The position numbers and the translations under genes are program-made. Under the pieces are notes generated by a model that worked only from the letters and a program-made list of their open reading frames with translations, did not search any database and was not told where the DNA came from. Positions 13,132-47,612 of a stretch of 64,000 nucleotides of DNA are shown piece after piece. The stretch lies in NCBI RefSeq assembly GCF_009789575.1, contig NZ_CP046908.1:1860001-1924000 (forward strand), read 5' to 3'. Origin of the DNA: Stappia indica. Its GTDB lineage: Bacteria > Pseudomonadota > Alphaproteobacteria > Rhizobiales > Stappiaceae. Position 1 is the stretch's first letter. Every line of letters begins with the position of its first letter.

Positions 13132-13156
13132 GGAACCTCGTGGTGCCCGGCCGGTT
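13132..13156 (+). promoter_or_regulatory. EcfG-type promoter (GGAAC-N16-GGTT)
   Basis: -35 GGAAC at 13132-13136 and GGTT at 13153-13156, ending 28 bases before the small membrane-protein gene at 13185. It is the leftmost of 21 such sites in the window. Confidence 0.65.
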
Positions 13157-13184
13157 AGGACCGTTCAACCACAGGAGTTCCGAC

Positions 13185-13376
13185 ATGGCCGAAAACCTCT
13201 GGCTGCTTGTTGTCCTCGGGGGGCCCGTGATCCTGGCCCTGTTCTTCTTCTACGTGCTGATGCGCCGGAGAAAGCGGGCCGAGCCGGCCGAGCGCCCGCG
13301 CGGCGAGGAGGCGACGAAGGAGCTGTACCGGAAGGACGCGACCGAGGGCGACCGCACCCACCCGCCGGAATACTGA
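13185..13376 (+). CDS. Small single-span membrane protein
   Basis: Protein of 63 residues with one hydrophobic segment at about 4-26, a basic MRRRKR stretch just inside the membrane and a charged tail. The ATG at 13185 follows ACAGGAG by seven bases. I do not recognise a family. Its EcfG-type promoter suggests a general stress gene, in line with the many tiny proteins farther right. Confidence 0.7.
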   Translation: MAENLWLLVVLGGPVILALFFFYVLMRRRKRAEPAERPRGEEATKELYRKDATEGDRTHPPEY

Positions 13377-13440
13377 CGACAGGCGGCAGGGCCCATCCGC
13401 CGCTGCCCCTTACGCAGGGACAAATGCCGCCGCCCCCCGT

Positions 13441-13485
13441 GGACAAGTGGGGGGACAAGTGGGGGGGGACAAGTGGGGGACAAGT
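13441..13485. repeat. Four irregular copies of GGACAAGT in a G-rich tract
   Basis: GGACAAGT occurs at 13441, 13453, 13467 and 13478 (spacing 12, 14 and 11 bases), separated by G-runs. It lies between the convergent ends of the small membrane-protein gene and the HWE kinase gene. Probably a slippage-prone repeat; G-runs could form a quadruplex. No function can be stated. Confidence 0.6.
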
Positions 13486-13496
13486 CGCGCTGTCCG

Positions 13497-15287
13497 CTAT
13501 TCGGCAGCCTTGTAGGTGAGGTTCTCCGAAACCGCGTCGAGCGGGTTCGAGCTGCCGTCCTTGCGCAGCGCCGACCAGGGCGCATGCAGCGACCAGTAGA
13601 GCCCGTCCGGCCGATACTCCAGCGTCACGCTGGCCGAGAAGGCCGCCGCCGCATGCCGCTCGATGATCACCGAGCCGAAGCCGCTCCGTTCGGGCGGCGT
13701 GACGGGCGGCCCGCCCTCTTCCTTCCACTCCAGCAGCACACCCGGCTCGTCCCGCCGGTCGTCGGCGCTCGTCCAGGAGATGCGGATGCATCCGAGCGGG
13801 CTCTGCAGCGCACCGTACTTGATGGAATTGGTGGCAAGCTCGTGCAGCACGAGACCGAGATTCTGCACCGCGCTGACCCCGAGGACGAAATCCTCGCCGT
13901 CGATTGCCCGCTGGTTGAGCGACACGCCGACGGTCGTCAGATGCTGGTCGATCAGGCTGTGCATCGACACGCCGTACCAGTTTTCCTGGGCCAGCAGCTC
14001 GACGGACTGGGCAAGGCCCTGCAGCCGGCTGTCCGCTGCCTCCTGGAACTCTTCCTTGGTGGCGGACTGGCGCGCGATCTGCCGCAGGATCGCCTGCACC
14101 AGGGTCAGCACGTTCTTGGTGCGATGGACCAGCTCGCGCAGCAGCAGATGGACGCGGTTTTCCGCTTCGCTCCGGTCGAAGGAGGCGTTGCACAGCGCAA
14201 CGGCGATCTGGTTCACCTCCAGCACCCGCGTCTCCAGCGGCGCGACGACCTCGCCGCGCCCCATCCGCTCGGCCATCCGCGACAGCTGCCGCACGGACCG
14301 GCTGAGCTGGCGGGCCACCAGATAGGCCAGCAGCATGCTCATGGCGATGAAGGCGATGCTGCCGAAGATCAGCAGCTTCCAGGTGACGACCGACGACTGC
14401 ACCGAGGCGACCGGCCCCGACACGACCACCACCCAGGGAAAGCTGGGCAGCCGGGCGTAGCCGCTCACCATCGCCTCGCCGCCATGCTCGAACTCCACCG
14501 CATCGCTGTGCCGGCTGAAGCCGTTGTGCGGATCGGCGGGAAAGGCGGTCGCGGTAGGCAGGCCGCTGGCCCCGCTGGAGGCGATGACCATGTCGGTCTG
14601 GTCGATGACGGCGGCGCTCCAGCCGGGCGGGATCATCTCGCGCGACAGCACGGCCTGGACCTGGTCGGTGCCCTGGGTCAGGACGAGGGCGGCGCCGACA
14701 TCGCGCAGGTTCTCGGGCAGCGGCATGGTGACGTTGAACACCCACTCTCCCCCGGTCTTGCCGAAGAAGATGTCGGAGACGGTGGTCTTGCCGCTCGAAA
14801 GGGCCGCTTGCAGCGCATCCTTGTTCGATGTGGGGCCGAGCGGCGTGCCGTAGGGCACACGGGTGTTGAGCAGCTGCTGCCCGGTCTCGTCCATCAGGAT
14901 GAGATACATGGAATGCGACGACAGGATGTGCTGCGTCCGGTTCTGGAAGCCCCGAAGGTCGCCGTCCTCCAGTTCCGGAAAGACCGCCAGCAGCCGCAGC
15001 GTCGACGTCATGTCGGTGAGATGTCGCTCGACGATGCGCCCGAGCGCGCGTGCATCCGTGGTCGCCCGTTCGCGCAGCTCCTTTCGCTCGTTCGCCTCGA
15101 TCTCCACGAAGAGAAAGGTCGCGAACGCGATCAAGGGCACGGCGATGGCGGCCGCGAGCAACGTCAGATACGACGTTATGGACGCCGTTGCCGGCGTAAG
15201 CGAGAACGCAGAAAAGAGTTTGCGCAAACGTGTCCGGTGCCGCCCCACGTCCGCACATGCCCCCACGCACGGCCCGACAGACACCAC
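13497..15287 (-). CDS. HWE-family sensor histidine kinase
   Basis: Membrane sensor kinase of about 596 residues. Membrane segments at about 38-62 and 302-326 enclose a periplasmic Cache-like sensor domain; a HAMP-like linker follows. The catalytic part has His388 in ELVHRTKN, the N-box HELATNSIKYGAL and WKEEGGP, the H and W-x-E residues that name the HWE class. Kinases of this class phosphorylate PhyR in the general stress response. The start is uncertain: GTG 15287 is used, but shorter GTG or TTG starts before the first membrane segment are possible. No EcfG-type site precedes it. Confidence 0.88.
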   Translation of the reverse strand: MVSVGPCVGACADVGRHRTRLRKLFSAFSLTPATASITSYLTLLAAAIAVPLIAFATFLFVEIEANERKELRERATTDARALGRIVERHLTDMTSTLRLLAVFPELEDGDLRGFQNRTQHILSSHSMYLILMDETGQQLLNTRVPYGTPLGPTSNKDALQAALSSGKTTVSDIFFGKTGGEWVFNVTMPLPENLRDVGAALVLTQGTDQVQAVLSREMIPPGWSAAVIDQTDMVIASSGASGLPTATAFPADPHNGFSRHSDAVEFEHGGEAMVSGYARLPSFPWVVVVSGPVASVQSSVVTWKLLIFGSIAFIAMSMLLAYLVARQLSRSVRQLSRMAERMGRGEVVAPLETRVLEVNQIAVALCNASFDRSEAENRVHLLLRELVHRTKNVLTLVQAILRQIARQSATKEEFQEAADSRLQGLAQSVELLAQENWYGVSMHSLIDQHLTTVGVSLNQRAIDGEDFVLGVSAVQNLGLVLHELATNSIKYGALQSPLGCIRISWTSADDRRDEPGVLLEWKEEGGPPVTPPERSGFGSVIIERHAAAAFSASVTLEYRPDGLYWSLHAPWSALRKDGSSNPLDAVSENLTYKAAE

Positions 15288-15385: not shown

Positions 15386-15411
15386 GGAACATCGGCCGGC
15401 GCCGCGCGGTT
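15386..15411 (+). promoter_or_regulatory. EcfG-type promoter (GGAAC-N17-GGTT)
   Basis: GGAAC at 15386-15390 and GGTT at 15408-15411, 34 bases before the ATG of the dehydrogenase at 15446. Confidence 0.65.
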
Positions 15412-15445: not shown

Positions 15446-16417
15446 ATGGCGACACCCAACCGCAAGACCACGACCGAGGCGACCGCCGGACACCAGCGCA
15501 GGATCCAGGACGAGATAGACAAGGGCGGCAGCCCGGCGCACGCAAAGAGCGGCGCCATGCAGGCCGGCGCCAGGCTCTATCCCGAGCCGCCGCTGCCCGA
15601 GCAGCACCAGCCCAAGCCCGGCGCCGAATGGGCGCTCGATCCCCCGCCGATGTGCGATGCCCCCTATTACGAAGGCTCGCGCAAGCTCGCCGACAAGGTG
15701 GCGATCATCACCGGCGGGGATTCCGGCATCGGCCGCGCCGTCGCCATCCTGTTCGCCAGGGAAGGTGCGGATGTGGTGATCTCCTACCTGAGCGAAGACA
15801 GGGACGCCAAGGACACGGCCGAGATGGTGGAGAAGGAGGGCCGCCGCTGCCTGATGAGCCGGGGCGACCTGCGCGATCCCGCCTATTGCGCGCAGCTGGT
15901 GGACAAGACCGTCGACACGTTCGGCCGGCTCGATGTCCTGGTCAACAATGCCGCCTTCCAGGTGCATGCCGATGCGATCGAGGATCTGTCGACGGAGCAT
16001 TTCACGGAGACCATCGAGACCAACCTGCACGGCCTGTTCCACATGTGCCGGGAAGCGGTGCCGCACATGAAGGCCGGCGCGGCGATCATCAACACCGGCT
16101 CGGTGGTCGGGCTCGAGGGCAAGGGACAGCTGCTCGACTACGCGATCACCAAGGGCGGCATCCACGCCTTCACCAAGTCGCTGGCCGAGCAACTGCTGCC
16201 GCGCGGCATCCGGGTGAACGCGGTCGCCCCCGGCCCGGTCTGGACGCCGCTCAACCCGTCCGACCAGGCGGCCGACAGGATCGCCCGGTTCGGCGCCTCG
16301 GTGCCGATGAAGCGTCCGGGCCAGCCGGAGGAACTGGCCCCGGCCTATGTCTTCCTGGCCTCGTCGCACTGCTCCAGCTACATCACCGGCGAGATCCTGC
16401 CCGTCGTCGGCGGCTGA
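15446..16417 (+). CDS. SDR-family oxidoreductase (general stress type)
   Basis: NAD(P)-dependent short-chain dehydrogenase of 323 residues. An N-terminal tail of about 70 residues precedes the Rossmann core, as in the YhdF/YhxC-type stress dehydrogenases. Cofactor motif TGGDSGIG at about 90-97, NNAAF after strand 4, catalytic Ser in NTGSVVG and Y-x-x-x-K in YAITKGG. ATG 15446 follows GCAGGAGC. The substrate is unknown. The EcfG-type promoter fits the common appearance of this family in general stress regulons. Confidence 0.9.
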   Translation: MATPNRKTTTEATAGHQRRIQDEIDKGGSPAHAKSGAMQAGARLYPEPPLPEQHQPKPGAEWALDPPPMCDAPYYEGSRKLADKVAIITGGDSGIGRAVAILFAREGADVVISYLSEDRDAKDTAEMVEKEGRRCLMSRGDLRDPAYCAQLVDKTVDTFGRLDVLVNNAAFQVHADAIEDLSTEHFTETIETNLHGLFHMCREAVPHMKAGAAIINTGSVVGLEGKGQLLDYAITKGGIHAFTKSLAEQLLPRGIRVNAVAPGPVWTPLNPSDQAADRIARFGASVPMKRPGQPEELAPAYVFLASSHCSSYITGEILPVVGG

Positions 16418-16510: not shown

Positions 16511-16948
16511 TCAGCTCGCCGCCGCCTGGTTGTGCGCCCCGCCGGGACGCACCACCCTGCCGAAGCCGATGCCCGTGACGGCCTGGTCCTGCTGCACCGC
16601 ATCGGCCAGCGAGACGACGCCTGCCAGCCGCTTGTCGGCGTTCAACACCACGAGGCGGCGCACCTGGATGTCGCCCATGTTCATCACCACCTCCTCGATC
16701 TCGTCGTCCTCGCGGCAGTATTTCACGTCGCGCGACATGACGTCCCGCACGCGGGCCGAGCCGTCCAGCCCCCGCGCGACGCCGCGCACGACGATGTCCC
16801 GGTCGGTGATCATGCCGACCAGAGTGTCGCCCTCGCCGACGGGAAGCAGGCCGATGTCGCTTGCCGCCATGCGCGAGGCGATGGCTTCCAGCGTGTCGTC
16901 GGGGCTCGCGATCTGTACGTCCCGCGTCATGATCTGAGAAATCTTCAT
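16511..16948 (-). CDS. CBS-domain pair protein
   Basis: Cytoplasmic protein of 145 residues consisting of two CBS domains (about 7-60 and 75-130), which usually bind adenine nucleotides. Typical elements MTRDVQIASPDDTL, VGMITDRDIVVRG and RRLVVLNADKRLAGVVSLAD are visible. The ATG at 16948 follows GGGAGACC. No catalytic domain is attached, so it is a stand-alone sensor or stress protein. Its EcfG-type promoter at 17063-17088 stands head to head with that of the BON gene. Confidence 0.92.
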   Translation of the reverse strand: MKISQIMTRDVQIASPDDTLEAIASRMAASDIGLLPVGEGDTLVGMITDRDIVVRGVARGLDGSARVRDVMSRDVKYCREDDEIEEVVMNMGDIQVRRLVVLNADKRLAGVVSLADAVQQDQAVTGIGFGRVVRPGGAHNQAAAS

Positions 16949-17062: not shown

Positions 17063-17088
17063 AACCGCGGCCGCACCCGGAATGTTCC
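17063..17088 (-). promoter_or_regulatory. EcfG-type promoter (GGAAC-N17-GGTT)
   Basis: On the minus strand GGAAC is at 17088-17084 and GGTT at 17066-17063, 114 bases before the CBS gene start. It is paired with the opposite site at 17124. Confidence 0.65.
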
Positions 17089-17123: not shown

Positions 17124-17148
17124 GGAACATTCGCGCCTCCTGCCGGTT
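17124..17148 (+). promoter_or_regulatory. EcfG-type promoter (GGAAC-N16-GGTT)
   Basis: GGAAC at 17124-17128 and GGTT at 17145-17148, 60 bases before the ATG at 17209. Only 35 bases separate its -35 element from that of the divergent site. Confidence 0.65.
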
Positions 17149-17208: not shown

Positions 17209-17793
17209 ATGCCGTATCACGACGACGACGACATTCGGCGGGACGAGCGGGAGGGCCGCCGGCGCCGCCGCCATCCCGGCATCGGCGCGCTGTACGGGCC
17301 CTATCCGATGATCGGCGAAGGTCTCTATCCCCAGTATCCGGGCTATTACGGCGAGGATTACGACGACTACCGGCGCGGCGACCCGTGGCGCGGGCCGGGC
17401 CGACCGGAGCACCATGCCCGGCGCGGCCGCGATGAGCGCGGCGTCTGGGACCGCGCCAGCGACGAGGTCGCCTCCTGGTTCGGCGACGAGAGCGCCGAGC
17501 ATCGCCGCGACATGGACAAGCACCGGGGCAAGGGGCCGCGCGGCTACAAGCGCTCGGATGCGCGCATCAGCGAGGATGTGCACGACCGGCTGAGCGACGA
17601 TCCCTATCTCGACGCCAGCAACATCTCGGTCGAGGTCAACGACCGCGAGGTGACGCTGAGCGGGCTGGTCGACCATCGCCACGACAAGCGGCGGGCCGAG
17701 GACTGCGTCGACTCCGTCTCCGGCGTCACCCATGTGCAGAACAACCTGCGCGTTCGTCCGCATCCGGTGCCGCCGCAAAGCGACCTGGCATGA
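17209..17793 (+). CDS. BON-domain protein with SWFGDE motif
   Basis: Protein of 194 residues. The first 75 residues are rich in charged residues, Tyr, Pro and Gly without a signal peptide; SWFGDE lies at about 87-92, a motif that recurs in BON proteins of this group. The BON domain (about 118-185, with VEVNDREVTLSGLV and VQNNLRV) is thought to bind phospholipid surfaces. ATG 17209 follows AAGGAGG. Regulated with the stress set through the promoter at 17124. Confidence 0.85.
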   Translation: MPYHDDDDIRRDEREGRRRRRHPGIGALYGPYPMIGEGLYPQYPGYYGEDYDDYRRGDPWRGPGRPEHHARRGRDERGVWDRASDEVASWFGDESAEHRRDMDKHRGKGPRGYKRSDARISEDVHDRLSDDPYLDASNISVEVNDREVTLSGLVDHRHDKRRAEDCVDSVSGVTHVQNNLRVRPHPVPPQSDLA

Positions 17794-17900: not shown

Positions 17901-18638
17901 CTATTTCCGGTCGAGGACGGCGAGCAGCGGCAGGTGGTCGGAGGCAAGGCGTGCCAGCGGCGTGCGCAGGGCCGTGCAATCGAGGCAGCGCAGGCCCTTC
18001 GACAGGAAGATGTGATCGAGCCGCAGCAAGGGAAAGCGCGCGGGAAAGGTCGGCCCGGCAAGCCGGCCGGTTCTCGTGCGGGCCGAGGGGCGGGCCGAGG
18101 GGCGGGCAAGCTCCAGCACCGAGGCGACCTGCGCGAAGCTGGGAGAGGAGGGCACCGAGTTGAAATCCCCCATCAGCACCGCATCCTGCCCCCGGCACTC
18201 CGGATGGCCGAGCCAGGCCGGCCCGAGCAGCGTGCGCACCTGCGCCAGCCGCTCGCCCCGCCACAGGCCCAGATGCGTGTTGAAGACGTGGAGCGGGCGG
18301 CCCTCATGCTCGATCTCGCACCAGATCGCGCCGCGCGGCTCGCCCCGCGAGGGGATCGGCCCGGTCTTGACCACGCGCATCGGCAGCGAGGTGAGGATGG
18401 CATCGCCGTATTTTTCCTCCGCCATATGCATGGCGGGATGGAAGACGGAGGTCATCTCCAGCGCCGCGGCGATCTCCTCGGCCTGGTCGACGCCGCCGCT
18501 GCGCGAGCGGCCGACATCGAGTTCCTGCAGGGCGACGACATCCGGCTGCGCCTCGGCGATCACCTCGACGATGCGCGCAAGGTCGAGACGCCGGTCGCCG
18601 CCGACGCAGCCATGCACATTGTAGGACAGGAACCTCAC
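17901..18638 (-). CDS. Endonuclease/exonuclease/phosphatase-family protein
   Basis: Protein of 245 residues of the DNase I-like fold. Metal and catalytic motifs are present: SYNVHGC at the N-terminus, ALQELD, NTHLG, MGDFNSVP and SDHLPLL at the C-terminus. The start is GTG at 18638, since an ATG would lose the first strand. Ten bases separate it from the phospholipase D-like gene upstream, so the two are cotranscribed; this pair recurs in bacteria and may act on phospholipid or a phosphodiester. A short repeat encodes ARPSARPSAR near residue 180. Confidence 0.88.
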   Translation of the reverse strand: MRFLSYNVHGCVGGDRRLDLARIVEVIAEAQPDVVALQELDVGRSRSGGVDQAEEIAAALEMTSVFHPAMHMAEEKYGDAILTSLPMRVVKTGPIPSRGEPRGAIWCEIEHEGRPLHVFNTHLGLWRGERLAQVRTLLGPAWLGHPECRGQDAVLMGDFNSVPSSPSFAQVASVLELARPSARPSARTRTGRLAGPTFPARFPLLRLDHIFLSKGLRCLDCTALRTPLARLASDHLPLLAVLDRK

Positions 18639-18648
18639 TGCGCCGGCC

Positions 18649-20217
18649 TTAAAACCACGCCTTCAACATCCCGGTCAGGCGCGAGGCGGCAAAGCTGCCG
18701 ACTTCGCGGAAGCGCTGCAGCGGCCAGTAGCGCCGCTTCGGATCGACGATGCCCGAGCCCAGATGCAGCAGGCCGGCGCGCTTGCGCGGATTGACCCGGT
18801 AGGGCCGCAGGCCGCGTTCGTTGACGTTGAGCTGGTCGATGACGGCGGCAAGCGAGCCGGTGCGCGCGATCACCTGTTCGACCGCGGCCGGGTCGGCGTC
18901 GAGATGCTCGGCCATCAGCGAGTTGCGCAAGCGCACGATCGCCTGCCGGCAGGCCTCGCCCTCCCCCTCGCTCTGGACCTCGCCCTGAACCTCGATCGCC
19001 AGGTCGCACTCCGTGTCGAAGCCTTCCGACCGGTTGTTGAGGTTCGACGAACCGACGCGCACGAAGCGGTCGTCGACGATCACCAGCTTGGCGTGGATGA
19101 GCACTTCCTGCTCGCCGCCCTCGCCGTCCGGCACCACGGCATAGGCGATGCGCAGCCGGCCCTCGCCATTGGCCCGCATCAGCCGGCGGATCGCCAGCGT
19201 GCGGCCATAGCCCATCGTCCACTGCTCCAGAAGGCCGCGCGTGTCGCGGGTGACGAGGATCACCACCTCCGGCCCGCCGGGCTCGCGCAGGCGCGCGGTC
19301 AGATGCCGGACCACCCGGGTCGAGACGAGGTACTGGGTCTCGATATAGATGCTCTCGCGCGCCGCATCGATGGCATCGCACGTGAGCTGGATCGGGTCCG
19401 TGCGCCGCTTGTGGTCGCTGTCGCCGGCCTCGGCCAGGGCGATGGCGATGTCGCACCCGGTGAGGTGCGGCTCCAGCTCTTCCGGCCAGCTCTCGTTTGG
19501 CCAGCTCTCGTTTGGCCAGCTCTCGTTCGGCGCCTCGGCGGAGGGAAGCGCGTCCGGAACCGCCCGTCCCCAGCGCCGGCGCACCACATCGGCAACGACG
19601 CGCGCGCCCTCGCCCGACAGCGCCACCTGGATGTCGTGCACGGGACCGTAGGGGTCGCCGTTCGGCCGGCAGCGCAGCGGGTTCTGCGCAAGGTGATCGG
19701 ACGTGTCCCAGCGCTGCGAGGTCAGGTCGATGCCGCCGACGAAGGCGAGCTCCTCGTCGATCACCACGAGCTTCTGGTGATGGGAGGCGCGCAAGGGATG
19801 CTCGAAATCGTAATGCAGCGCGATGCGCGGATGCTCGCACCACTCAGTATCCTGCAGCACCGGAATGCGGCCGCTCGAATAGACCGGTCCCTCGCCCCAC
19901 ACGAGAATGCGGATGTCGAGATCCGGCAGCGCCTCGACCCGCGAGCGCAGCAATTCGCCGAGCGTCATCGCGCCCTCGTTCTGCGGCTGCAGGCGGATGT
20001 CGGGATCGAAGTCCCAGCCGACGATCCAGATGGAGCGGCGCGCCTGCATCAAGGCCGCCTCGACCTGACGGTAATAGGCATCGCCGTCCACCAGGAAGGC
20101 GAGGCGGTCGGCCCGCGCCACCCGCCAGGCGTTGCGGTCGGTATCGATGATCGGGGAAGGGTCGGAAAAGCTGTCTGTGCGTGTCATCCGGGGGCCGTTG
20201 CTGCCTTGAAACATCAA
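18649..20217 (-). CDS. Phospholipase D/cardiolipin synthase-like protein
   Basis: Protein of up to 522 residues with two HKD signatures: HHQKLVVIDE with GGIDL at about 146-165 and HAKLVIVDD with GSSNLNNRS at about 373-392. These make the active site that transfers phosphatidyl groups or hydrolyses phosphodiesters. No membrane segment is obvious. The start may be ATG 20217 or ATG 20187; neither has a clear ribosome site. A threefold PNESW repeat sits between the two halves. Probably in one transcript with the small gene upstream and the phosphatase downstream. Confidence 0.88.
   Translation of the reverse strand: MMFQGSNGPRMTRTDSFSDPSPIIDTDRNAWRVARADRLAFLVDGDAYYRQVEAALMQARRSIWIVGWDFDPDIRLQPQNEGAMTLGELLRSRVEALPDLDIRILVWGEGPVYSSGRIPVLQDTEWCEHPRIALHYDFEHPLRASHHQKLVVIDEELAFVGGIDLTSQRWDTSDHLAQNPLRCRPNGDPYGPVHDIQVALSGEGARVVADVVRRRWGRAVPDALPSAEAPNESWPNESWPNESWPEELEPHLTGCDIAIALAEAGDSDHKRRTDPIQLTCDAIDAARESIYIETQYLVSTRVVRHLTARLREPGGPEVVILVTRDTRGLLEQWTMGYGRTLAIRRLMRANGEGRLRIAYAVVPDGEGGEQEVLIHAKLVIVDDRFVRVGSSNLNNRSEGFDTECDLAIEVQGEVQSEGEGEACRQAIVRLRNSLMAEHLDADPAAVEQVIARTGSLAAVIDQLNVNERGLRPYRVNPRKRAGLLHLGSGIVDPKRRYWPLQRFREVGSFAASRLTGMLKAWF
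19486..19530. repeat. Three tandem 15-bp copies inside the phospholipase D gene
   Basis: CCAGCTCTCGTTTGG is repeated three times (last copy with one change) and encodes PNESW three times in the linker between the two HKD halves. The 15-base unit keeps the frame, so copy number could vary without breaking the protein. Confidence 0.9.
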
Positions 20218-20284
20218 GAACGGGGAACATCAAGGGAAGGAGGCGCGCGCCGCGCGCCCTCTTCCGCAATTCGACGGACCGAAG

Positions 20285-20506
20285 TCAGCTGTCCCGTACG
20301 ATCCGGTTGGACTCGTGATCCTGCCGCTGGTCGTTCTGCACGCCCTTGCTGTCGAGGCCGCGCTCCTTGCCGTGGCTGGCCTTGTCGCGGTTGGAAAGGG
20401 TCATGTTGTCGCCGAGGACGTCCTTGTCGGCGATGGTGCGCGCACCGCTGCCGCTGCCCTTGCCCTGCGAACCGGCGCCCATGTGCTTCTTGCTTGCGTT
20501 GGCCAT
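20285..20506 (-). CDS. Small hydrophilic protein
   Basis: Protein of 73 residues, rich in Gly, Ser, Lys, Asp and Asn, with no membrane segment and probably disordered. The ATG at 20506 follows AGGACAGGA. I do not recognise the family; the composition resembles small stress-induced hydrophilins. It lies 67 bases before the phospholipase D gene and after a degenerate EcfG-type site. Confidence 0.6.
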   Translation of the reverse strand: MANASKKHMGAGSQGKGSGSGARTIADKDVLGDNMTLSNRDKASHGKERGLDSKGVQNDQRQDHESNRIVRDS

Positions 20507-40165: not shown

Positions 40166-40180
40166 AAACATAAACTTGCC

Positions 40181-40252
40181 AGTCACCCTTTTAAATCTGA
40201 AGTTCGTTCAGAGCATGCCGCAAAATGCGACGAACTTCAGATTCGGGTGACT
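40181..40252. repeat. Long inverted repeat B (between ligD and ku)
   Basis: AGTCACCC (40181-40188) pairs with GGGTGACT (40245-40252), and ATCTGAAGTTCGT (40195-40207) with ACGAACTTCAGAT (40230-40242). The layout (outer stem, asymmetric bulge, inner stem of 13-14 bp, loop of 22-23 bases) copies repeat A although the sequences differ. The right end runs into the stop codon of the minus-strand ku gene. Confidence 0.85.
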
Positions 40253-41099
40253 AGCGGCGCGATTTGCCTGTTGATTTCTTGTCCGCCCCCTTTTCCGCCG
40301 CAACGCTCTTGCGCAGGGCGTCCATGATCGACACCACGTTGCCGGATGTCTCCTGCGGCGCATCGCCCTCGTCGTGTTTTGCAGACTTGCGGGGCGCCTT
40401 CGGCTTCTGCTTGCGCTTCTTCGCCGCGATGATCGCCTTCAGGCGCTTCTGCACTGGATCGCTGACCATCTCGCCGGACCAGTCGGCCGTGCGCTCCTCG
40501 ATCAGCTTGCCGATCAGCTTCAGCGCCTTGGGCTCGGGCCGGGATGTGTCGATGTCGGCGAAATAGTCCTCCGCCTCGCGGACCTCGTCGCCGTAGCGCA
40601 GCGTCCACACGACGATGCCCTTGCCGCGCGGCTCCAGCATCACCGCCCGCTCGCGGCGATAGAGCACCAGCCGGGCGATGCCGACCGTGCCGGTTGCGGC
40701 CATCGCCTCGCGGATGACGGCGAAGGCCTCCTCGGCGATCTTGTCGTCCGGCGTCAGGTAGTGGGCGTCGTCGAGATAGATCCAGCCGATATCCTCGCGC
40801 GGAACGAAGGTCTCGATGTCGATCATGCGGGTGCTGTCGAGCGCCACCGCGTCGAGCTCCTCGTCCTCCATCACGATCAGCTTGTCCTCGGAGACGGGAT
40901 AGCCGCGCCGCTGGTCCTGCTCGCGCACCGGCTTGCCGGTCTTCTCGTCGACATAGCGGCTCTCCACCCGGTTGCCGGTGGCGCGGTTCAGCGTGTGGAA
41001 GCGGATCTTCTTTCGCGTGGTGGTGGCCGGCATCATCGCCACCCGGCAGGTGACGAGCGAAAGCCGCAGATAGCCCTTCCAGAAGCTGCGCGGTGCCAT
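40251..41099 (-). CDS. ku: Ku DNA end-binding protein (second copy)
   Basis: Second Ku of 282 residues, convergent with ligD. The N-terminus APRSFWKGYLRLSLV and core blocks (RVESRYVDEKTGKPV, YYLTPD-like HYLTPDD) fit Ku; the tail after residue 225 is long and Lys-rich (KKRKQKPKAPRK), then ends with VVSIMDALRKS, which parallels the VVDLMEALRES of copy 1. The two copies are distant in sequence, so this is not a recent duplication. ATG 41099 follows GGGGAGAA. Own EcfG-type promoter. Confidence 0.94.
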   Translation of the reverse strand: MAPRSFWKGYLRLSLVTCRVAMMPATTTRKKIRFHTLNRATGNRVESRYVDEKTGKPVREQDQRRGYPVSEDKLIVMEDEELDAVALDSTRMIDIETFVPREDIGWIYLDDAHYLTPDDKIAEEAFAVIREAMAATGTVGIARLVLYRRERAVMLEPRGKGIVVWTLRYGDEVREAEDYFADIDTSRPEPKALKLIGKLIEERTADWSGEMVSDPVQKRLKAIIAAKKRKQKPKAPRKSAKHDEGDAPQETSGNVVSIMDALRKSVAAEKGADKKSTGKSRR

Positions 41100-41153: not shown

Positions 41154-41179
41154 AACGCGCCGGGGCGGGTCCGTGTTCC
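41154..41179 (-). promoter_or_regulatory. EcfG-type promoter (GGAAC-N17-CGTT) of second ku
   Basis: Minus strand GGAAC at 41179-41175 and CGTT at 41157-41154, full consensus, 54 bases before the ku ATG. Only 17 bases separate it from the opposite site at 41197. Confidence 0.7.
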
Positions 41180-41196: not shown

Positions 41197-41221
41197 GGAA
41201 CACGGAGGCTCCTGCCGTGTT
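41197..41221 (+). promoter_or_regulatory. EcfG-type promoter (GGAAC-N16-TGTT)
   Basis: GGAAC at 41197-41201 and TGTT at 41218-41221, 23 bases before the ATG at 41245. Confidence 0.65.
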
Positions 41222-41244: not shown

Positions 41245-41430
41245 ATGTGGAACCGACTGCAAGGTTTGATGGCCGAATTGCTGCCCGGCTGGGCGCGGGA
41301 CCATGCCCTGCGCCGCGAGCGCCGCCGGGCGCTCCGCAATGCCGCTTACCCCGCCGCGGACGAGGCGACGGCGGCGCGCCCGGCCTCACGCGAGGAGCAG
41401 CGGCCGGAAGATCGCCGGCCGGGAACATAA
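41245..41430 (+). CDS. Small basic protein
   Basis: Protein of 61 residues, Arg- and Ala-rich, with an amphipathic N-terminal helix (MWNRLQGLMAELLPGWA). The ATG at 41245 follows AGGAGG. Family not recognised. It ends 16 bases before the end of a convergent gene. Stress promoter directly upstream. Confidence 0.6.
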   Translation: MWNRLQGLMAELLPGWARDHALRRERRRALRNAAYPAADEATAARPASREEQRPEDRRPGT

Positions 41431-41992: not shown

Positions 41993-43234
41993 TCACTTCT
42001 CCTCGAGATGTTCGCGCATGTCCTCGACCTCGCCGGCCGAGACGGGGCCGGCCTTTCGGTCCGAGACCGCGCGCAGATAGGTGACGACATCGGCCACCTG
42101 CTGGTCGGTCAGCTTCCAGGCGAAGCCCGGCATGGCGATCTGGCTCGGAACCGCCTCGGTCTGCTGCGCCCGCGCGCCGCCGAGGATGATGCGGATGACC
42201 GTCGCCGGATCTTCCGCCGTCAGCTTGTTGGAGCTTTCCAGCGAGGCGAAGATGTCGGGAACGCCCGAGCGGTCGGCCGAATGGCAGGCGGCGCAATTGT
42301 CGAAATAGATCGCCTCGCCGGTCTCGAGGCGCGCCTGCGCCGGGGCTTCGGCCTCCTCGCGCGGGGCATCGTCGAGGCTCTTGAGATAGACCGCGATCGC
42401 CATCAGGTCCTCGTCCCGCAGATGCTGGGTGGACAGGCCGACGACCTCGCCCATGCGCTGCATCGGCGCGGTGTGGCGCGAGCGCCCCTCGCCGAGGAAG
42501 CGGACGATGTCCTCCGCCTCCCAGTCGGCAAGGCCGCCGTTGACGCCGCCGCGAATATTGGGGGCGTACCAGTTGTCGAGGGTTCCCCCGCGCAGGTATT
42601 CGTCCTCCTTGTCGGCGCCCAGCAGGTTCTTGCCCGTGTGGCAGGCGCCGCAATGGGCCAGCGCATCGACGAGGTAGCGGCCGCGGTTCCACTCCTGCGA
42701 CTGGTCCGGATCGACCGCGAAGTCCACCTTGTCGAAGAACAGCAGCTTCCAACCCGCCACCGACATGCGGATGCTGAGCGGGAAGGGCAGCGCGTTCTCC
42801 GGGATCTCCGCCGTCACCGGCTCCAGCGTGCGCAGATAGGCGAAGATCGCATCCGCGTCCTCGCGGGACATCTTGGTGAAGTGCGGATAGGGCATGGCCG
42901 GATAGAGATGCGACCCGTCCCGGCTGATCCCCTCGTTGAGCGCCCGGTAGAACTCGTCGCGGCTCCAGCCGCCGAGGCCCGTCGCCTCGTCCGGCGTCAG
43001 GTTGCTGGAATAGATCGTGCCGAACGGCGTCTCCAGCCCGCGCCCGCCGGCATAGCGTTTGCCGCCCTCCTCGATATTGGTGTGGCAGGCGACGCAGTCG
43101 CTGGCGGTCGCAAGGTAGCGGCCGCGCTCCACCTGCGAGAAGGAGAGTTCCTGCGCCATTGCCGCGGAAGCTATCCAAAGGCCCAGCGCGCCGGCGAACG
43201 TGCCCGCCAGCAAGGCATTGCGAAGCCGGCTCAT
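41993..43234 (-). CDS. Triheme cytochrome c subunit of a membrane-bound dehydrogenase
   Basis: Periplasmic cytochrome of 413 residues with signal peptide and three haem c sites: CVACH (47-51), CGACH (195-199) and CAACH (314-318). This is the layout of the cytochrome subunit of gluconate, sorbitol and fructose dehydrogenases, which passes electrons from the flavin subunit to quinone. No strong C-terminal anchor is visible. ATG 43234 overlaps the flavin subunit stop (ATGA). Confidence 0.93.
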   Translation of the reverse strand: MSRLRNALLAGTFAGALGLWIASAAMAQELSFSQVERGRYLATASDCVACHTNIEEGGKRYAGGRGLETPFGTIYSSNLTPDEATGLGGWSRDEFYRALNEGISRDGSHLYPAMPYPHFTKMSREDADAIFAYLRTLEPVTAEIPENALPFPLSIRMSVAGWKLLFFDKVDFAVDPDQSQEWNRGRYLVDALAHCGACHTGKNLLGADKEDEYLRGGTLDNWYAPNIRGGVNGGLADWEAEDIVRFLGEGRSRHTAPMQRMGEVVGLSTQHLRDEDLMAIAVYLKSLDDAPREEAEAPAQARLETGEAIYFDNCAACHSADRSGVPDIFASLESSNKLTAEDPATVIRIILGGARAQQTEAVPSQIAMPGFAWKLTDQQVADVVTYLRAVSDRKAGPVSAGEVEDMREHLEEK

Positions 43235-44991
43235 GGGCGCACCAGGGGGCCGGGATCCGGCAGATACCGGTTGATGATGGCATCCACCGACCAGTAGGCC
43301 AGCGCGCCCACCGTGCCGGTCGGATTGTAGCCGGCGTTTTGCGGGAAGAGCCCGGCGCCGGTGACGAACAGGTTCGGCAGGTCCCAGCTCTGGCCGTAGC
43401 GGTTGACGACGCTGCTTGCCGGATCGGTCCCCATGATGGTGCCTCCCGTGTTGTGCGTGGTCTGATAGGGCTCGCTGTCGTAGGAGCCGCGGCGGGCGTT
43501 GACCTTCACATGCGCCCCGCCCATGCCGTGGGCGATCTCCTCGGCAACCGGCGTCAGGTGCTCGGTCAGGCGCCGGTCGTTGAGCGTGAAGTCGTAGGTC
43601 ATCCGCAGGAGCGGGCGGCCCCACACGTCCTTGTAGGTCGGGTCGAGATCGAGATGGTTGCTGCGATGGGCCATCGACGAGCCGTGCACGCCGACGCTGG
43701 TCGTCTTCAGGAAGTTCTCCCGCACTGCCCGTTTCCAGGCCGAGCCCCAGCGCGGCACGTCCTCGGGCACCGGGTGGCTCTCGATCGGCCGGGCATTGGT
43801 GGTGCCGCAGGCGATATAGCCGCCGCCGATGAAGCCGAGCCCCGAATGGTCGAAATTGTCGCCATTATAGTCGTCGACGACCATGCCGAGCGCGCCCGCG
43901 CCGACGAAGCCGTTGGTGTATTCGTCCTCGAAGAACACCGTCGCCGAGGACATCACCTGGTAACAGTAGTTCTTGCCGACGACCCCTTCGCCGGTGCGCG
44001 GGTCGTAGGGCGTGCCGATCTCCGACAGGAGCAGCAGCCGCGTGTTCTGCAGCGGATAGGCACACAGGATGACGATGTCGGCGGGCTGGAACCAGACCTC
44101 GCCGCTGGTGTCCACATAGGTGACGCCGGTCGCATGCTTGCCGTCGGGCGTCTTTTCCACCGACAGCACCTCGGAATTGGTGCGCAGGCCGAAATTCGGC
44201 CGCTGCATCAGCACGGGAATGATCGTCGTCTGCGGCGAGGCCTTGGAATAGTTGCCGCAGCCGTGCTTTTCGCAGAAGCCGCAATAGGTGCAGGGGGCGA
44301 GCTGCATGCCGAGCGGATTGACATAGGCGCGCGACATGTTGGCGGAGGGGACGGGAAAGGGATTGAGCCCCAGCGCCCGCGCCGAGGCCGCGAACCGGTC
44401 CTGCGAGAAGGTCATGCGCATCGGCGGATTGGGATACTGGTCGCTGCGCATGCCCTCGAACGGGTTGCCGCCCTCGATTGTCTCGCCGTCGACGTTGCCG
44501 GCCTGGCCGCAAATGCCGCAGATCTTCTCGAAATAGTCGAAATGCGGCTCCAACTCCTCGTAGGTGACGCCGTAGTCCTGCACTGTCATGTCCGCGGGCA
44601 GCGGGCCGTAGCGCTCCTCGTTATGGCTGCGCGCGACGAAGTCGGAGGGAAGAAAGCGATAGGTCTGGCCGTTCCAGTGGACGCCGGCCCCGCCGACGCC
44701 GTTGCCGGGCAGGAACGAGCCCCAGCGCCGCATCGGCAGCGCCGTCTGGGCGCTGTTGTTGCGGAAGGTCAGGGTGTCCTGCGAGGCCTCCTGGAACATG
44801 CCGTGCCGCCAGTAGTAGCGCAGCTCGTCCTGGGCGAAGGTGGTGGCGAAGTCGGACGGCGTGTCGCGCCAGGGCCCGCGCTCCAGCGCCAGCACGTCGA
44901 GGCCGGCGGCCGTGAGCTTTTCGGCGAAGATCGCCCCGGTCCAGCCGAAGCCGACCAGAACCACATCGACGCGCGGAAGTTGCTTGGTCAT
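43231..44991 (-). CDS. FAD/Fe-S catalytic subunit of a gluconate/fructose dehydrogenase-type complex
   Basis: GMC-family flavoprotein of 586 residues. FAD-binding VGFGWTGAIFAEKL at 12-25, and a Cys cluster C234-x2-C-x2-C-x4-C245 (CTYCGFCEKHGC) that in fructose and FAD-glucose dehydrogenases holds a 3Fe-4S centre. Catalytic His region HNTGGTIMG and the C-terminal NPTGTVGALAYW. It oxidises a sugar, sugar acid or polyol; which one is unclear. ATG 44991 follows GGGAGA. No own signal peptide: such subunits are exported with the small Tat subunit. Confidence 0.92.
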   Translation of the reverse strand: MTKQLPRVDVVLVGFGWTGAIFAEKLTAAGLDVLALERGPWRDTPSDFATTFAQDELRYYWRHGMFQEASQDTLTFRNNSAQTALPMRRWGSFLPGNGVGGAGVHWNGQTYRFLPSDFVARSHNEERYGPLPADMTVQDYGVTYEELEPHFDYFEKICGICGQAGNVDGETIEGGNPFEGMRSDQYPNPPMRMTFSQDRFAASARALGLNPFPVPSANMSRAYVNPLGMQLAPCTYCGFCEKHGCGNYSKASPQTTIIPVLMQRPNFGLRTNSEVLSVEKTPDGKHATGVTYVDTSGEVWFQPADIVILCAYPLQNTRLLLLSEIGTPYDPRTGEGVVGKNYCYQVMSSATVFFEDEYTNGFVGAGALGMVVDDYNGDNFDHSGLGFIGGGYIACGTTNARPIESHPVPEDVPRWGSAWKRAVRENFLKTTSVGVHGSSMAHRSNHLDLDPTYKDVWGRPLLRMTYDFTLNDRRLTEHLTPVAEEIAHGMGGAHVKVNARRGSYDSEPYQTTHNTGGTIMGTDPASSVVNRYGQSWDLPNLFVTGAGLFPQNAGYNPTGTVGALAYWSVDAIINRYLPDPGPLVRP

Positions 44992-45013
44992 GGGTCTCCC
45001 TCTGGCTGTTGGG

Positions 45014-45748
45014 TCAGGGTTGCGACCAGCCCGGACGCCCCTGCAGGCTGACGGGCTCGAGCGGAATGGCCGCGCCGTTGTGGCCGACGAAGTCGCGGTA
45101 GTCGTAGCGGGTGCCGGGAAAGCCGACATAGCGCCAGCCGATCATGTCGCGGTTGCCGCCGTAGATCGGGTCGGCGAAGAAGCCTTCGACGGTGTTTTCC
45201 AGGATGAGGTCGAAGAAGGTCTTGGCGGAGACGCGCTCGAACGCGATTTCCTCCTCGTCGAGCCCGGTGAGGACCGCGTCCTGGTCTTCCTCGGTCAGTT
45301 CGGCGAAGGGACCGCCCATCTGCGAGCGGCAATGCTCGTCGAGCTCGGCAAGGGCGAGGCGGTACAGCATCGCCGGCGGGTGTTCGCTCTGGTAGCCCTG
45401 CGTCGAGGTGCCTTCGGCGAAGGGGCCTTGCATGTACCAGTGCTGGGCCCGGCCGTAGAAGCCGGCCATCTGGCGGTCGATGAAGGTGACGACATCGGCC
45501 TCGCTCGCGCCCGGGCCGTCGTCGTCGCTGGGGATGAGCCTTGCGCAGATCGCCGCCACCGCCCGTCGCTCCTCGTGGCTGAAGAAGCGCTCGCTGCCGG
45601 TGCCGTAATACGGCACCTCCCCCGACATCGGCGACCAGGGCATGCCCGCCCCGCGCCCGTAGTCGGAGGCGAGGACGCGAGATGCCGCAAGGGCGGTGCC
45701 CGCCATCAGCATGAGTCTCAGTGTCTGTCTCCGCGTGTAGTGCGTCAC
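45014..45748 (-). CDS. Small (gamma) subunit, gluconate 2-dehydrogenase subunit 3 family
   Basis: Protein of 244 residues with a Tat signal (TRRQTLRLMLMAGTALAASRVLA) that carries the folded flavin subunit across the membrane. The mature part FFSHEERRAVAAICARLIP is typical for the family. The GTG at 45748 follows GGAGGGCACC; an earlier start would bury the Tat motif. First gene of the operon, behind an EcfG-type promoter. Confidence 0.92.
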   Translation of the reverse strand: MTHYTRRQTLRLMLMAGTALAASRVLASDYGRGAGMPWSPMSGEVPYYGTGSERFFSHEERRAVAAICARLIPSDDDGPGASEADVVTFIDRQMAGFYGRAQHWYMQGPFAEGTSTQGYQSEHPPAMLYRLALAELDEHCRSQMGGPFAELTEEDQDAVLTGLDEEEIAFERVSAKTFFDLILENTVEGFFADPIYGGNRDMIGWRYVGFPGTRYDYRDFVGHNGAAIPLEPVSLQGRPGWSQP

Positions 45749-45774: not shown

Positions 45775-45799
45775 AACAGGTTGGCCCGGCGGATGTTCC
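45775..45799 (-). promoter_or_regulatory. EcfG-type promoter (GGAAC-N16-TGTT) of the dehydrogenase operon
   Basis: Minus strand GGAAC at 45799-45795 and TGTT at 45778-45775, 26 bases before the GTG at 45748. Confidence 0.65.
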
Positions 45800-45924: not shown

Positions 45925-46899
45925 TCAGCGCGTGTCCATGCCCGACCAGAACTCGTCGACCGGACCGCGGGACTTCTCCCGCGTGCCGGGGTTGCGGAAC
46001 TCGGCCGGGTCGACGGTCGGCGCCTGCTCGAGTTCCTCCTGGCTGAGGGTCAGGACGATGGTCTCAAGGCCCGGCGTTGCATGCAGCCGCTCCCAGGGCA
46101 CGGCCACATATTCCTCGCCAAGGCCGAGGAAGCCGCCGCGCGCGACCAGCACGTAGGAGACGCTGCCCGTCGCCGGGTCGAGCACCACGTCGTGAACGCT
46201 GCCGAGGGTCTCGTCGTCGATGTTGCGCACGTCGGTGCCGGTCAGATTGTCGATGCGATAGGACCGCATGCCCTCGACCTCGTCGATCGGCTGGGCAAGA
46301 GCCAGCTGCTCGCGGCGCCAGTCGGTCACTTCCGACGGCTCGACGCCGGCCGAAGTGAGCTGGCTCGTGTAGTCGTCATAGACCGCATCGAGCTGGCCGG
46401 CGACATAGTCGCAGCCCTCCTGCTCGCCGCGCTGGGAGAGGATATGGGCGGCGAAGTACAGCGTGCGGATCTGCTCGCGCGGGGAATAGGCGCCTTCTAC
46501 CGTACCGCGCGGATCGCCGGCCATCGGCTGACGAACGCCGGTCGGCGAAGCGGGCGTCTCGGCGCCCGGCCGCGCGGCGCCGTCCGGCGCGGCAGTGGGC
46601 GTACCCACGGGCCGCGTGCCGTAGCCGGCGCCCCAGCCCGTCAGCCAGAACTGATCCTCGCGCATGCGCTCGGCCGACTGTTCCAGCCGCTCCTGGCACT
46701 GGCCCGCGACCTGGGCATTGGCCTGCCGGCCGGCCTGACCTGCGTTCTGGCCGGCCTTCTGATCCTGGCCCTGCTGGCGCATCTGCTGCTCCTGGCCTGC
46801 CGGCGCATTCCCCTGCTGGGCAAATGCTGCATGCGGCAGCAGCGACAGCGCGGTGGCGGCGAGCAGAACGCCGGCGGTCTTGGTTGCGTAGCGGGTCAT
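45925..46899 (-). CDS. Secreted PRC-barrel protein
   Basis: Protein of 324 residues with a signal peptide (to about residue 27), a Gln/Ala-rich linker, a helical middle and a PRC-barrel domain at about 210-280 (GMRSYRIDNLTGTDVRN, GSVHDVVLDPATGSVSYVLV, VPWERL). PRC barrels bind other proteins or RNA; secreted forms are common in rhizobial stress sets. ATG is at 46899. EcfG-type promoter at 46969, head to head with that of DUF892. Confidence 0.85.
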   Translation of the reverse strand: MTRYATKTAGVLLAATALSLLPHAAFAQQGNAPAGQEQQMRQQGQDQKAGQNAGQAGRQANAQVAGQCQERLEQSAERMREDQFWLTGWGAGYGTRPVGTPTAAPDGAARPGAETPASPTGVRQPMAGDPRGTVEGAYSPREQIRTLYFAAHILSQRGEQEGCDYVAGQLDAVYDDYTSQLTSAGVEPSEVTDWRREQLALAQPIDEVEGMRSYRIDNLTGTDVRNIDDETLGSVHDVVLDPATGSVSYVLVARGGFLGLGEEYVAVPWERLHATPGLETIVLTLSQEELEQAPTVDPAEFRNPGTREKSRGPVDEFWSGMDTR

Positions 46900-46968
46900 T
46901 CGTTACCTCCTTCTTGGTGTGACTTTTCCCGGGGCACGGCATCGCCGCGCCGCCCGGTCTGCCCTGCC

Positions 46969-46994
46969 AACACCTGTCCCCCGGCGGATGTTCC
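46969..46994 (-). promoter_or_regulatory. EcfG-type promoter (GGAAC-N17-TGTT)
   Basis: Minus strand GGAAC at 46994-46990 and TGTT at 46972-46969, 69 bases before the ATG at 46899. Its 11 bases after GGAAC (ATCCGCCGGG) nearly match those of the dehydrogenase promoter at 45775. Confidence 0.65.
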
Positions 46995-47041
46995 GTTGCG
47001 CCCCGCCGGATCCTTGCAGCCGCAGATGCACGGACGCGGAG

Positions 47042-47066
47042 GGAACAATCCCTGCGGCGAGACGTT
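47042..47066 (+). promoter_or_regulatory. EcfG-type promoter (GGAAC-N16-CGTT)
   Basis: GGAAC at 47042-47046 and CGTT at 47063-47066, full consensus, 48 bases before the ATG at 47115. Rightmost site of the island. Confidence 0.7.
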
Positions 47067-47114
47067 CGCACACCGCACCGTCCGGCGGTGACCAACACGA
47101 GAAAGGAAAACGCA

Positions 47115-47612
47115 ATGGCCAAGGAAAAGACCCTCGAAGACCTGTTCCACGACACGCTCAAGGACATCTATTACGCCGAGCGCAAGATCCTGAAGACGCT
47201 GCCGAAGATGCAGCGGGCGGCGCAGTCCGACGATCTGAAGAAGGCCTTCGAGACGCATCGCGAGGAGACCGAAGGCCATGTCGAGCGCCTGCAGAAGGTG
47301 TTCGAGATCCTCGGCAAGGCCCCGCGCGGCAAGACCTGCGATGCCATCGAGGGCATCATCGCGGAAGGCGAGGAGATCATCGACGAGTTCAAGGGCACCC
47401 CTGCCCTCGATGCCGGTCTGATCTCGTCCGCGCAGGCGGTCGAGCACTACGAGATCACCCGCTACGGCACCCTGCACCGCTGGGCCAACGAGCTGGGTCT
47501 CAAGGATGCGGCCAAGCTGCTCCAGGACACCTTGAAGGAAGAGGCGAAGACCGACGAGAGCCTGACCAAGCTCGCCGACGCCTCGGCCAACGCGCGCGCC
47601 AAGGCGGCCTGA
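47115..47612 (+). CDS. Ferritin-like DUF892 protein (YciE/YciF family)
   Basis: Four-helix protein of 165 residues. The pattern TLEDLFHDTLKDIYYAERKIL at the start, EETEGHVERL in helix 2 and AVEHYEITRYGTL in helix 3 give the Glu/His residues of a di-iron site. The family is a common general-stress marker, including in EcfG regulons. ATG 47115 follows GAAAGGAAA. No clear signal peptide. Confidence 0.93.
   Translation: MAKEKTLEDLFHDTLKDIYYAERKILKTLPKMQRAAQSDDLKKAFETHREETEGHVERLQKVFEILGKAPRGKTCDAIEGIIAEGEEIIDEFKGTPALDAGLISSAQAVEHYEITRYGTLHRWANELGLKDAAKLLQDTLKEEAKTDESLTKLADASANARAKAA

Follow-up and report, generated by a model that had tools for sequence, protein, structure and literature searches.

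Sigma factors of the EcfG type (also RpoE2 or SigT) work within the PhyR-NepR-EcfG system, and their promoters combine a -35 element GGAAC, a spacer of 16 or 17 nucleotides and a -10 element that is mostly CGTT. According to the section cited, half of the completed alphaproteobacterial genomes carry at least two EcfG copies, and the additional ones lack a satisfactory explanation (PMC3892343). Among the closest described cases is EcfG2 of Rhizobium etli (PF00052, plasmid p42f), an accessory sigma factor that acts partly apart from EcfG1 and belongs to a subgroup reported as plasmid-encoded; in Escherichia coli each R. etli EcfG favours its own promoter, and the sections concerned give EcfG2 a regulon without a motif and no anti-sigma factor nearby (PMC3892343). 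RpoE5 of Sinorhizobium meliloti, a member of group ECF15 (ECF, extracytoplasmic function), has a NepR-like open reading frame (ORF) just downstream on the opposite strand, and in the account cited its overexpression gave one target (PMC6180224). Caulobacter SigU, an EcfG paralogue beside the canonical one, and Methylobacterium EcfG2 are described in the part cited without regulons of their own (PMC4814048). Here these systems are compared with a 34-kb block in the chromosome of Stappia indica, at positions 13132 to 47612 of the window (the whole 64,000-nucleotide stretch analysed, bases 1860001-1924000 of NZ_CP046908.1, a single contig of 5,116,759 bases), in which 21 EcfG-type promoter sites accompany a gene for a divergent EcfG, called EcfG3.

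The block shares with the canonical system the -35 GGAAC, the spacer, the GTT core of the -10 element and the types of target gene, and it differs in the first base of the -10 element, in a sigma factor that lacks the canonical YSxxRKxxREV stretch, and in that no PhyR was found within the island. EcfG3 falls in the same clade as R. etli EcfG2, whose locus also has a ferritin-like gene (69% to the island's DUF892 protein) and 15 NGTT sites within 20 kb, 3 of them CGTT; it differs from EcfG2 in lying on a chromosome within a 34-kb island. RpoE5 is likened by layout only, clade placement aside, and SigU by description only. The block holds a genuine EcfG-type regulon, whose sites cluster strongly and are for the most part confined to it. 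On balance, we lean towards reading it as a mobile accessory general-stress island whose promoters would be read mainly by its own non-canonical EcfG3, with a relaxed -10 element; the plasmid relatives, shared genes and differing promoters suggest a movable, semi-independent stress response. No description of such an EcfG stress island was found in open-licence PMC titles or abstract starts.

Promoter-like sites and their confinement

Island positions are given in window coordinates and those of the core stress locus in contig coordinates (kb); G000 denotes this genome. An earlier note on this DNA had claimed 21 GGAAC-N16/17-NGTT sites, 19 of them with A right after GGAAC, always pointing into the next gene. 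All 21 are present (13132-47066), the A follows GGAAC in 19, and every site aims at a start codon, start codons being approximate because genes were called with an in-house codon-usage script trained on Stappia. Twenty sites are intergenic, and the remaining one (32013) overlaps the 3′-end of an AI-2E-family gene. The apparent orphan at 41197 (+) faces an uncalled ORF of 61 amino acids (41245-41430) behind AGGAGG; no counterpart of this site was found among the small genes of G005, a Stappia genome compared below. The note had taken the sites for the plain EcfG/RpoE2/SigT signature GGAAC-N16-17-CGTT, of which the GGAAC and the spacer stand, whereas the canonical CGTT is present in only 6 of the 21 and the -10 element lacks a first-base C in the other 15.

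The pattern was matched exactly, and looser promoters escape such patterns. The window as a whole holds 25 NGTT matches where 1.6 are expected, and none of 100 shuffles reached 25 or more. Beyond the 21, the remaining four matches fall within genes and form two self-overlapping pairs, 10408/10410 and 24371/24373; the stretches concerned, 10408-10434 and 24371-24397, are nearly palindromic and likely chance. The claimed confinement to 13.1-47.1 kb held up, with an exact site in 20 of 28 predicted island transcription units and in none of the 16 flank units. Across the genome the NGTT pattern occurs 200 times and its reversed form 183 times; the island accounts for 23 of the 200 and the core stress locus for 6. 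Matches of the GGAACA type number 62 against 30 reversed, with 19 in the island, which is 0.7% of the genome and for which the density outside predicts 0.29; those of the CGTT type number 69 against 80. The exact-pattern scan finds a strong island excess rather than an equal density across the genome. The note had also called such clustering unusual: it is strong here, and clustering near PhyR is seen also in G007, another member of the genus.

The ratio of real to reversed pattern varies widely across 101 genomes, and because of this instability the reversed null, though retained, was distrusted genome-wide and site contexts were read instead. The 90 outside matches read comprise 39 of the 43 GGAACA matches (one more is in the window, three were unread) and 56 of 57 CGTT matches (the last being that at 1847615), most matches of neither kind having been left out. 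Seventy lie within ORFs and 20 do not; 11 are promoter-like (at most 250 nucleotides from a start), among them 3 of the 39 GGAACA sites. It is likely that a few promoters are scattered elsewhere; most of the detectable set is in the island. The dispersed site at 3212457 looks good, preceding a small protein with a signal-like start.

EcfG3 and its clade

The ecfG3 gene (20611-21177, -) is preceded by its own site with -10 AGTT (21233-21257, -), so that EcfG3 probably activates its own expression. The protein matches PF04542, PF08281 and PhyR_sigma2 in Pfam, giving sigma regions 2 and 4 of the ECF15/EcfG type, and shares 48% and 43% identity with EcfG1 and EcfG2, respectively, the two EcfGs of the core locus. 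Among the NCBIfam matches listed it passes the general ECF superfamily cut-off only. In region 2.4 EcfG3 reads YTKIKIDTREA in place of YSxxRKxxREV, and its best PDB match, 5uxx, retains FYSQMRKRGREV. The serine-to-threonine change in this region occurs in 20 of 21 sigma factors classed as non-canonical and in 2 of 34 canonical ones. By our own alignment and a self-derived residue offset, the position corresponds to N92 of SigH, which reads a neighbouring G:C pair; no contact to the C position is described in that section of the source (PMC6411747). Loss of the R-K pair in region 2.4 was considered as a cause of the -10 shift and set aside, R. etli EcfG2 having R-R and R. leguminosarum 4B having R-K with both off CGTT.

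In a tree of 58 sigma factors, the 20 placeable of the 21 non-canonical ones form one clade with R. etli EcfG2 (support 98/81; 98% of bootstrap trees), the R. NXC24 sigma having been left out for a stop in its aligned stretch. The flanking rows, G046b_15177 and Ketogulonicigenium, retain the canonical stretch. When ten new rows are added the clade has support of 98/89 and takes nine of them; G187 falls outside G046b_15177, and the non-canonical label therefore needs two changes on the tree. Placement is less certain for the long branches of G011, G029, Paracoccus, N. galegae and G187. EcfG3 itself lies on a single 5.1-Mb contig, unlike the plasmid-encoded subgroup of R. etli EcfG2. A tblastn search with EcfG3 returned 250 plasmid records at E<=1e-34, of which 165 are Rhizobium or Sinorhizobium.

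Shift of the -10 element across loci

The departure from CGTT extends across the clade. Sites were counted up to 20 kb from the sigma gene, excluding matches inside that gene. At the 26 canonical loci, 134 of 180 sites have C as the first base of the -10 element and 16 of 180 have A after GGAAC; at the 21 non-canonical loci the figures are 76 of 292 and 158 of 292, respectively. The C share per locus differs with a Mann-Whitney p of 3e-7 (23 canonical and 21 non-canonical loci with at least four sites), p becoming 4e-6 with the four Stappia genomes collapsed and 7e-7 when matches in called ORFs are removed (131/169 against 65/253). With C in about 35% of chance matches, the 26% at non-canonical loci means lost preference and not avoidance. 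The sole tested locus below background is that on a Roseinatronobacter plasmid, with C in 1 of 24 sites (p 0.0005), where C is avoided. A trap for promoter scans of this kind is the conserved GTNMKAWLF stretch of EcfG genes, which can spell GGAAC-N17-TGTT (e.g. G029 14520).

Five sigma rows were unclassed, and three of these are the sole row of their locus, so that the loci of G011, E. adhaerens and R. leguminosarum WSM2304 were left out; at G011 ten sites without any C would favour the shift, and C in 4 of 15 at WSM2304 fits it. Of 38 named loci, 29 gave a sigma match at the chosen cut-off. The 19 canonical loci among them, an out-of-sample set, have C in 62 of 81 sites, and ten unclassed ones have it in 31 of 38. 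The classes had been drawn after part of the data was seen, and the outcome for ten new non-canonical loci was for that reason predicted in advance. C was found there in 8 of 52 sites, or in 7 of 47 once matches inside the sigma gene are set aside. Nine loci then retain sites, none above one third C, and G270 retains none. The ten loci represent eight genomes, three being near-copies of one genus, and G270 has R-K.

The anti-sigma candidate and the core stress locus

About 10 kb from EcfG3 in Stappia lies the gene for a NepR-like anti-sigma candidate, NepR3 (31480-31707, -, short start), downstream of a site with -10 GGTT (32013-32037, -). The longer start scores 20.2 bits against the Pfam NepR model, below the curated cut-off of 25.7. 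A dedicated model was built from nine ORFs, three from Stappia chosen by position and six found with a first NepR1-3 model, and it matches at 10 of 21 non-canonical loci (E<1e-7, seeds included); the non-seed matches are G000, G012 and NGR234b, with G151 among the ten new loci. Weak matches of this model at many canonical loci are put down to their own, related NepR proteins. A NepR3-type ORF lies convergent and directly downstream of the sigma gene on S. meliloti pSymA, in S. sojae, at S. fredii NGR234b, on two Mesorhizobium plasmids and in G011, the layout described for RpoE5 being that of the S. sojae, Mesorhizobium and G011 loci. None was found in the stretches fetched around the sigma genes of R. 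etli, R. tropici and others, and the idea of NepR3 as a constant partner was dropped, the ORF being found in part of the clade only.

The core general-stress locus lies about 30 kb upstream of the island, at 1833.4-1843.9 kb, and carries PhyR (1839750), NepR1-EcfG1 and NepR2-EcfG2, both core NepRs exceeding the Pfam cut-off, together with two sensor kinases, a PRC-barrel protein and a CsbD protein as judged by eye. Its six sites read GGAACC in five cases and GGAACT in one, with -10 CGTT in four and GGTT in two. The ecfG3 gene is 46.5 kb from that of EcfG1. The intervening 29 kb hold, by eye, mostly transport and catabolic genes and three matches, one at 1847615 overlapping the 5′-end of an opposite-strand gene and the pair inside a gene at window 10408/10410.

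Taken together with the sequence comparisons, a mechanism may be proposed in which EcfG3 keeps the -35 GGAAC and would have relaxed its -10 requirement from CGTT to NGTT. NepR3 would be its likely anti-sigma factor, presumably relieved by PhyR from the core locus and possibly also by signals from the histidine kinase of the HWE family encoded in the island. The canonical EcfG1 and EcfG2 probably share the CGTT promoters, namely those of otsA-ku-ligD, ctaG, the second ku and the DUF892 gene. Canonical EcfG is thus a probable co-reader of the island, and it may share or even dominate the reading.

Distribution in Stappia and beyond

Among 14 genomes of the genus, this one included, EcfG3 is present in four (G000, G003, G005 and G012), always 42-51 kb from the two core EcfGs, and an orthologue of the island's oxidase (at least 89%) in five. 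These four genomes and G008 have a chromosomal neighbourhood in common; in the mapped stretches both flanks match in G005 and G003, the latter with an insertion past one end, and one flank is seen in G012. The site upstream of EcfG3 is AGTT in G000, G005 and G012. Promoters of sodC, DUF3008 and BON genes have G or A as the first -10 base in the readable EcfG3-bearing genomes and CGTT in G008, which lacks EcfG3. Seven of the nine G008 sites are CGTT; the contrast with 6 of 21 in this genome (Fisher p 0.02) is weak, given the common ancestry of the genomes and the orthology of several sites. G008 retains an orthologue of NepR3, which would fit a loss of EcfG3 after its arrival. GGAACA, which G008 also retains, was discarded as a mark of EcfG3 alone. 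At the core PhyR locus of G007 (C1 3690977-3712661), a genome without EcfG3, 14 sites lie within 20 kb of EcfG and 12 have the CGTT form. In G009 and G013 (99% completeness) no EcfG-like match better than about 1e-11 was found, and both may lack the EcfG system. At G002:C11 ~89701-92046, an orthologue of the HWE kinase (91%) stands beside a short DUF892-like remnant, with no other island gene in the mapped stretch.

To our knowledge, Rhodobacterales are generally without PhyR-EcfG. A plasmid of Roseinatronobacter sp. S2 (NZ_CP121115.1) encodes a homologue of EcfG3 at 59%, and 36 of the plasmid's 61 sites lie within 405.7-459.2 kb, the 54 kb around the sigma gene; of these 36, 3 have the CGTT form and 25 begin GGAACA. 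Homologues of 15 of the 39 island proteins occur in 66 kb of this plasmid, compared with none of 25 other window proteins, and the shared genes include SodC, SDR, the GMC oxidoreductase trio and the oxidase block. Runs are kept in the oxidase/CtaG/DUF2231 block and the GMC trio, while overall gene order differs, and the 66-kb stretch has no annotated PhyR or second EcfG. A Ketogulonicigenium plasmid carries a canonical-type EcfG. Twelve other clade loci have homologues of 1 to 9 of the 39 island genes, the sigma included, so that an extensive island is seen at two distant places and the other loci have only site clusters around the sigma. At the R. etli locus, matches to flank genes (6 of 25) outnumber those to island genes (3 of 39), an excess attributed to common transporter families. 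A small group of clustered intergenic GGAAC-N16-NGTT sites precedes ferritin-like, P450 and small genes around R. etli ecfG2 (p42f stretch, 19702-32223).

Alternative explanations

Several observations weigh against EcfG3 as the main reader, and many of them favour an alternative in which the island is an ordinary PhyR-NepR-EcfG1/2 regulon, a flexible canonical EcfG reads all 21 sites, EcfG3 is a minor amplifier like SigU, and clustering is a by-product of gene order. The core locus is only about 30 kb away, six of the 21 sites are CGTT, and canonical EcfGs accept other -10 elements in Sphingopyxis, according to the part of that study cited (PMC7083833). With matching flanks, G008 has a 15-kb version of the island without EcfG3 and with mostly GGAACA promoters, so that canonical EcfG can presumably read such promoters; G007 clusters sites around PhyR, again without EcfG3; and in G003 the nearest match upstream of EcfG3 is a CGTT, 322 nucleotides away. 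SigU and Methylobacterium EcfG2, as noted above, set a precedent for paralogues without a regulon. R. etli EcfG2 is reported also to read the phyR promoter (PMC3892343), and the sequence just before R. etli ecfG2 has no forward GGAAC-NGTT match. The evidence linking protein change to promoter change comes from very few transitions: because the non-canonical label changes only once or twice on the tree, the loci are not independent proofs of cause, and the shift is essentially about one event. Individual loci also run counter to the trend, with C in 5 of 5 sites at G029, 5 of 9 in M. huakuii, 3 of 6 at G053a and 4 of 5 at the left-out E. adhaerens locus. On the other side, the two classes of loci, 26 canonical and 21 non-canonical, differ in -10 composition, and the composition at new loci was correctly predicted in advance; EcfG2 of R. 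etli, which belongs to the EcfG3 clade, favours its own promoter in the published assays (PMC3892343); and a similar island occurs on the Rhodobacterales plasmid in a stretch without annotated PhyR or second EcfG. An ordinary regulon is for these reasons considered rather unlikely, though it deserves to be kept in view.

A difference in -10 composition could also be statistical, if non-canonical loci were merely richer in chance matches and no code had changed. About a third of chance matches have C (69 of 200 in this genome, a background share of about 0.35), several non-canonical loci have few sites beside control counts of 3-8, and three of the ten new loci are not clearly above the reversed control (G151 5 to 4, G187 4 to 3, G270 2 to 3); E. 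adhaerens (5 to 4) and R. leguminosarum 4B (4 to 8) likewise have no enrichment. Against this stand 20 sites within 20 kb of the sigma gene versus 0 control here and 24, 24 and 23 versus 0 at G003, G005 and G012, the intergenic placement of island sites aimed at genes, the 24 sites versus 3 control in Roseinatronobacter with a single C, and the rise of A at the sixth position (158/292 versus 16/180), which chance would not lead one to expect; this explanation is accordingly given very little credence. The mobility of the whole block is a separate matter. The island might be a resident, never mobile cluster of stress genes, and the plasmid islands assembled separately from popular stress genes, in keeping with the shared neighbourhood in five Stappia genomes, the absence of tRNA genes from the window, the different gene order on the plasmid and the 1 to 9 genes shared by other clade loci. 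Its patchy occurrence in the genus (EcfG3 in 4 of 14, the oxidase orthologue in 5 of 14) and the fifteen island genes that recur together, with runs kept, on the Roseinatronobacter plasmid speak for transfer instead, and permanent residence is judged doubtful.

If the accessory-island reading with EcfG3 as principal reader is extended to the clade, a bolder proposal follows, which is put forward tentatively and with rather less confidence than the reading of the Stappia island itself. EcfG3-clade sigma factors, often with a NepR3-type anti-sigma factor, might constitute a portable second stress response that moves with its targets between orders and runs beside or without the host PhyR-EcfG, its code having drifted from CGTT to NGTT with C not preferred. 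Such a shift would supply the motif of R. etli EcfG2 and explain how that sigma factor has targets and no known motif. It would also provide a testable promoter code (GGAAC, often then A, then NGTT without C preference) and imply that a stress regulon can travel in company with its sigma factor, without each gene having to be connected separately to host regulation.

Gene content of the island

Thirty-nine called genes start inside the island, to which the 61-amino-acid ORF found later is added; Pfam scans cover the called genes. The census in the earlier note (DUF892, CBS, BON, SDR, SodC, OtsA-type and Ku/LigD) is borne out by Pfam, and its ten or so tiny unknown proteins correspond to ten short proteins without a Pfam family plus the 61-amino-acid ORF. 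Missing from that account were the island's own divergent EcfG, the NepR-like protein, the nearby core PhyR locus and the plasmid-borne related sigma factors, and Pfam adds the HWE kinase, a PLD-like protein, a terminal oxidase block with CtaG and a GMC oxidoreductase trio. There is no tRNA gene in the window, no integrase among the Pfam matches of island genes and no Rfam match in a scan of the window; among ten island proteins compared with NCBIfam, NepR3 and seven small proteins have no match, and the HWE kinase is below the cut-off.

The island opens with a site reading GGAACC with -10 GGTT (13132-13156, +), 28 nucleotides before the gene for a 63-amino-acid protein without a Pfam family (13185-13376, +). 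The HWE histidine kinase with a dCache sensor domain follows (13497-15161, -; PF07536, PF02743), with an orthologue in 6 of the 14 genus genomes, its own included. GGTT sites precede the genes for an SDR oxidoreductase (site 15386-15411, +; gene 15446-16417, +), a two-CBS protein (17063-17088, -; 16511-16948, -) and a BON-domain protein (17124-17148, +; 17209-17793, +). No exact site lies upstream of the endonuclease/exonuclease/phosphatase-family and PLD-like genes (17901-20187, -), and the PLD-like protein (18649-20187, -) contains an in-frame tandem repeat, NESWP three times over. Between these and ecfG3 is a gene for a 73-amino-acid protein without a Pfam family (20285-20506, -).

Beyond ecfG3, a GGTT site (21348-21372, +) precedes the gene for an 87-amino-acid protein without a Pfam family (21509-21772, +), which has a homologue in the Roseinatronobacter plasmid island. 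The Cu/Zn superoxide dismutase gene sodC (21829-22341, -) has a GGTT site (22412-22436, -) that is CGTT in G008, and a CGTT site (22479-22504, +) precedes an 86-amino-acid gene, two small proteins without a Pfam family being encoded at 22647-23252 (+). Genes for DUF2188, an alpha/beta hydrolase and DUF3182 (23290-25353, -) are followed by one for a 144-amino-acid protein without a Pfam family (25490-25924, -) with a TGTT site (25956-25980, -). The terminal oxidase block comprises a 109-amino-acid protein without a Pfam family, COX1 and COX2 (26042-29501, -), and next to it lie a DUF2231 membrane protein gene (29664-30164, +) and the UPF0093 and CtaG-type oxidase assembly genes (30145-31229, -), the latter behind a CGTT site (31397-31421, -).

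Past nepR3 and the AI-2E-family membrane protein gene (32004-33089, -), an AGTT site (33257-33281, +), CGTT in G008, precedes the DUF3008 and BON genes (33316-33807, +). Three small proteins without a Pfam family follow, of 91 amino acids (33871-34146, -; CGTT site 34330-34355, -), 100 amino acids (34378-34680, -; GGTT site 34769-34794, -) and 78 amino acids (34912-35148, +; GGAACC site with GGTT, 34855-34879, +), the last with a homologue in the Roseinatronobacter plasmid island. The genes for an OtsA-type glycosyltransferase 20, Ku and LigD (35238-40092, +) stand behind a CGTT site (35165-35190, +), and a second Ku gene (40251-41099, -) has its own CGTT site (41154-41179, -). A TGTT site (41197-41221, +) lies 23 nucleotides before the 61-amino-acid ORF (+). 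The cytochrome c, GMC oxidoreductase and gluconate-dehydrogenase subunit 3 trio (41993-45712, -) and the PRC-barrel protein gene (45925-46899, -) have TGTT sites at 45775-45799 (-), before the subunit 3 gene, and at 46969-46994 (-). The island closes with a CGTT site (47042-47066, +) preceding the gene for a DUF892 (YciF-like) ferritin-fold protein (47115-47612, +). Within 36799-41099, one of the two Ku genes is aligned with ligD and the other is convergent behind it, each unit with a CGTT site.

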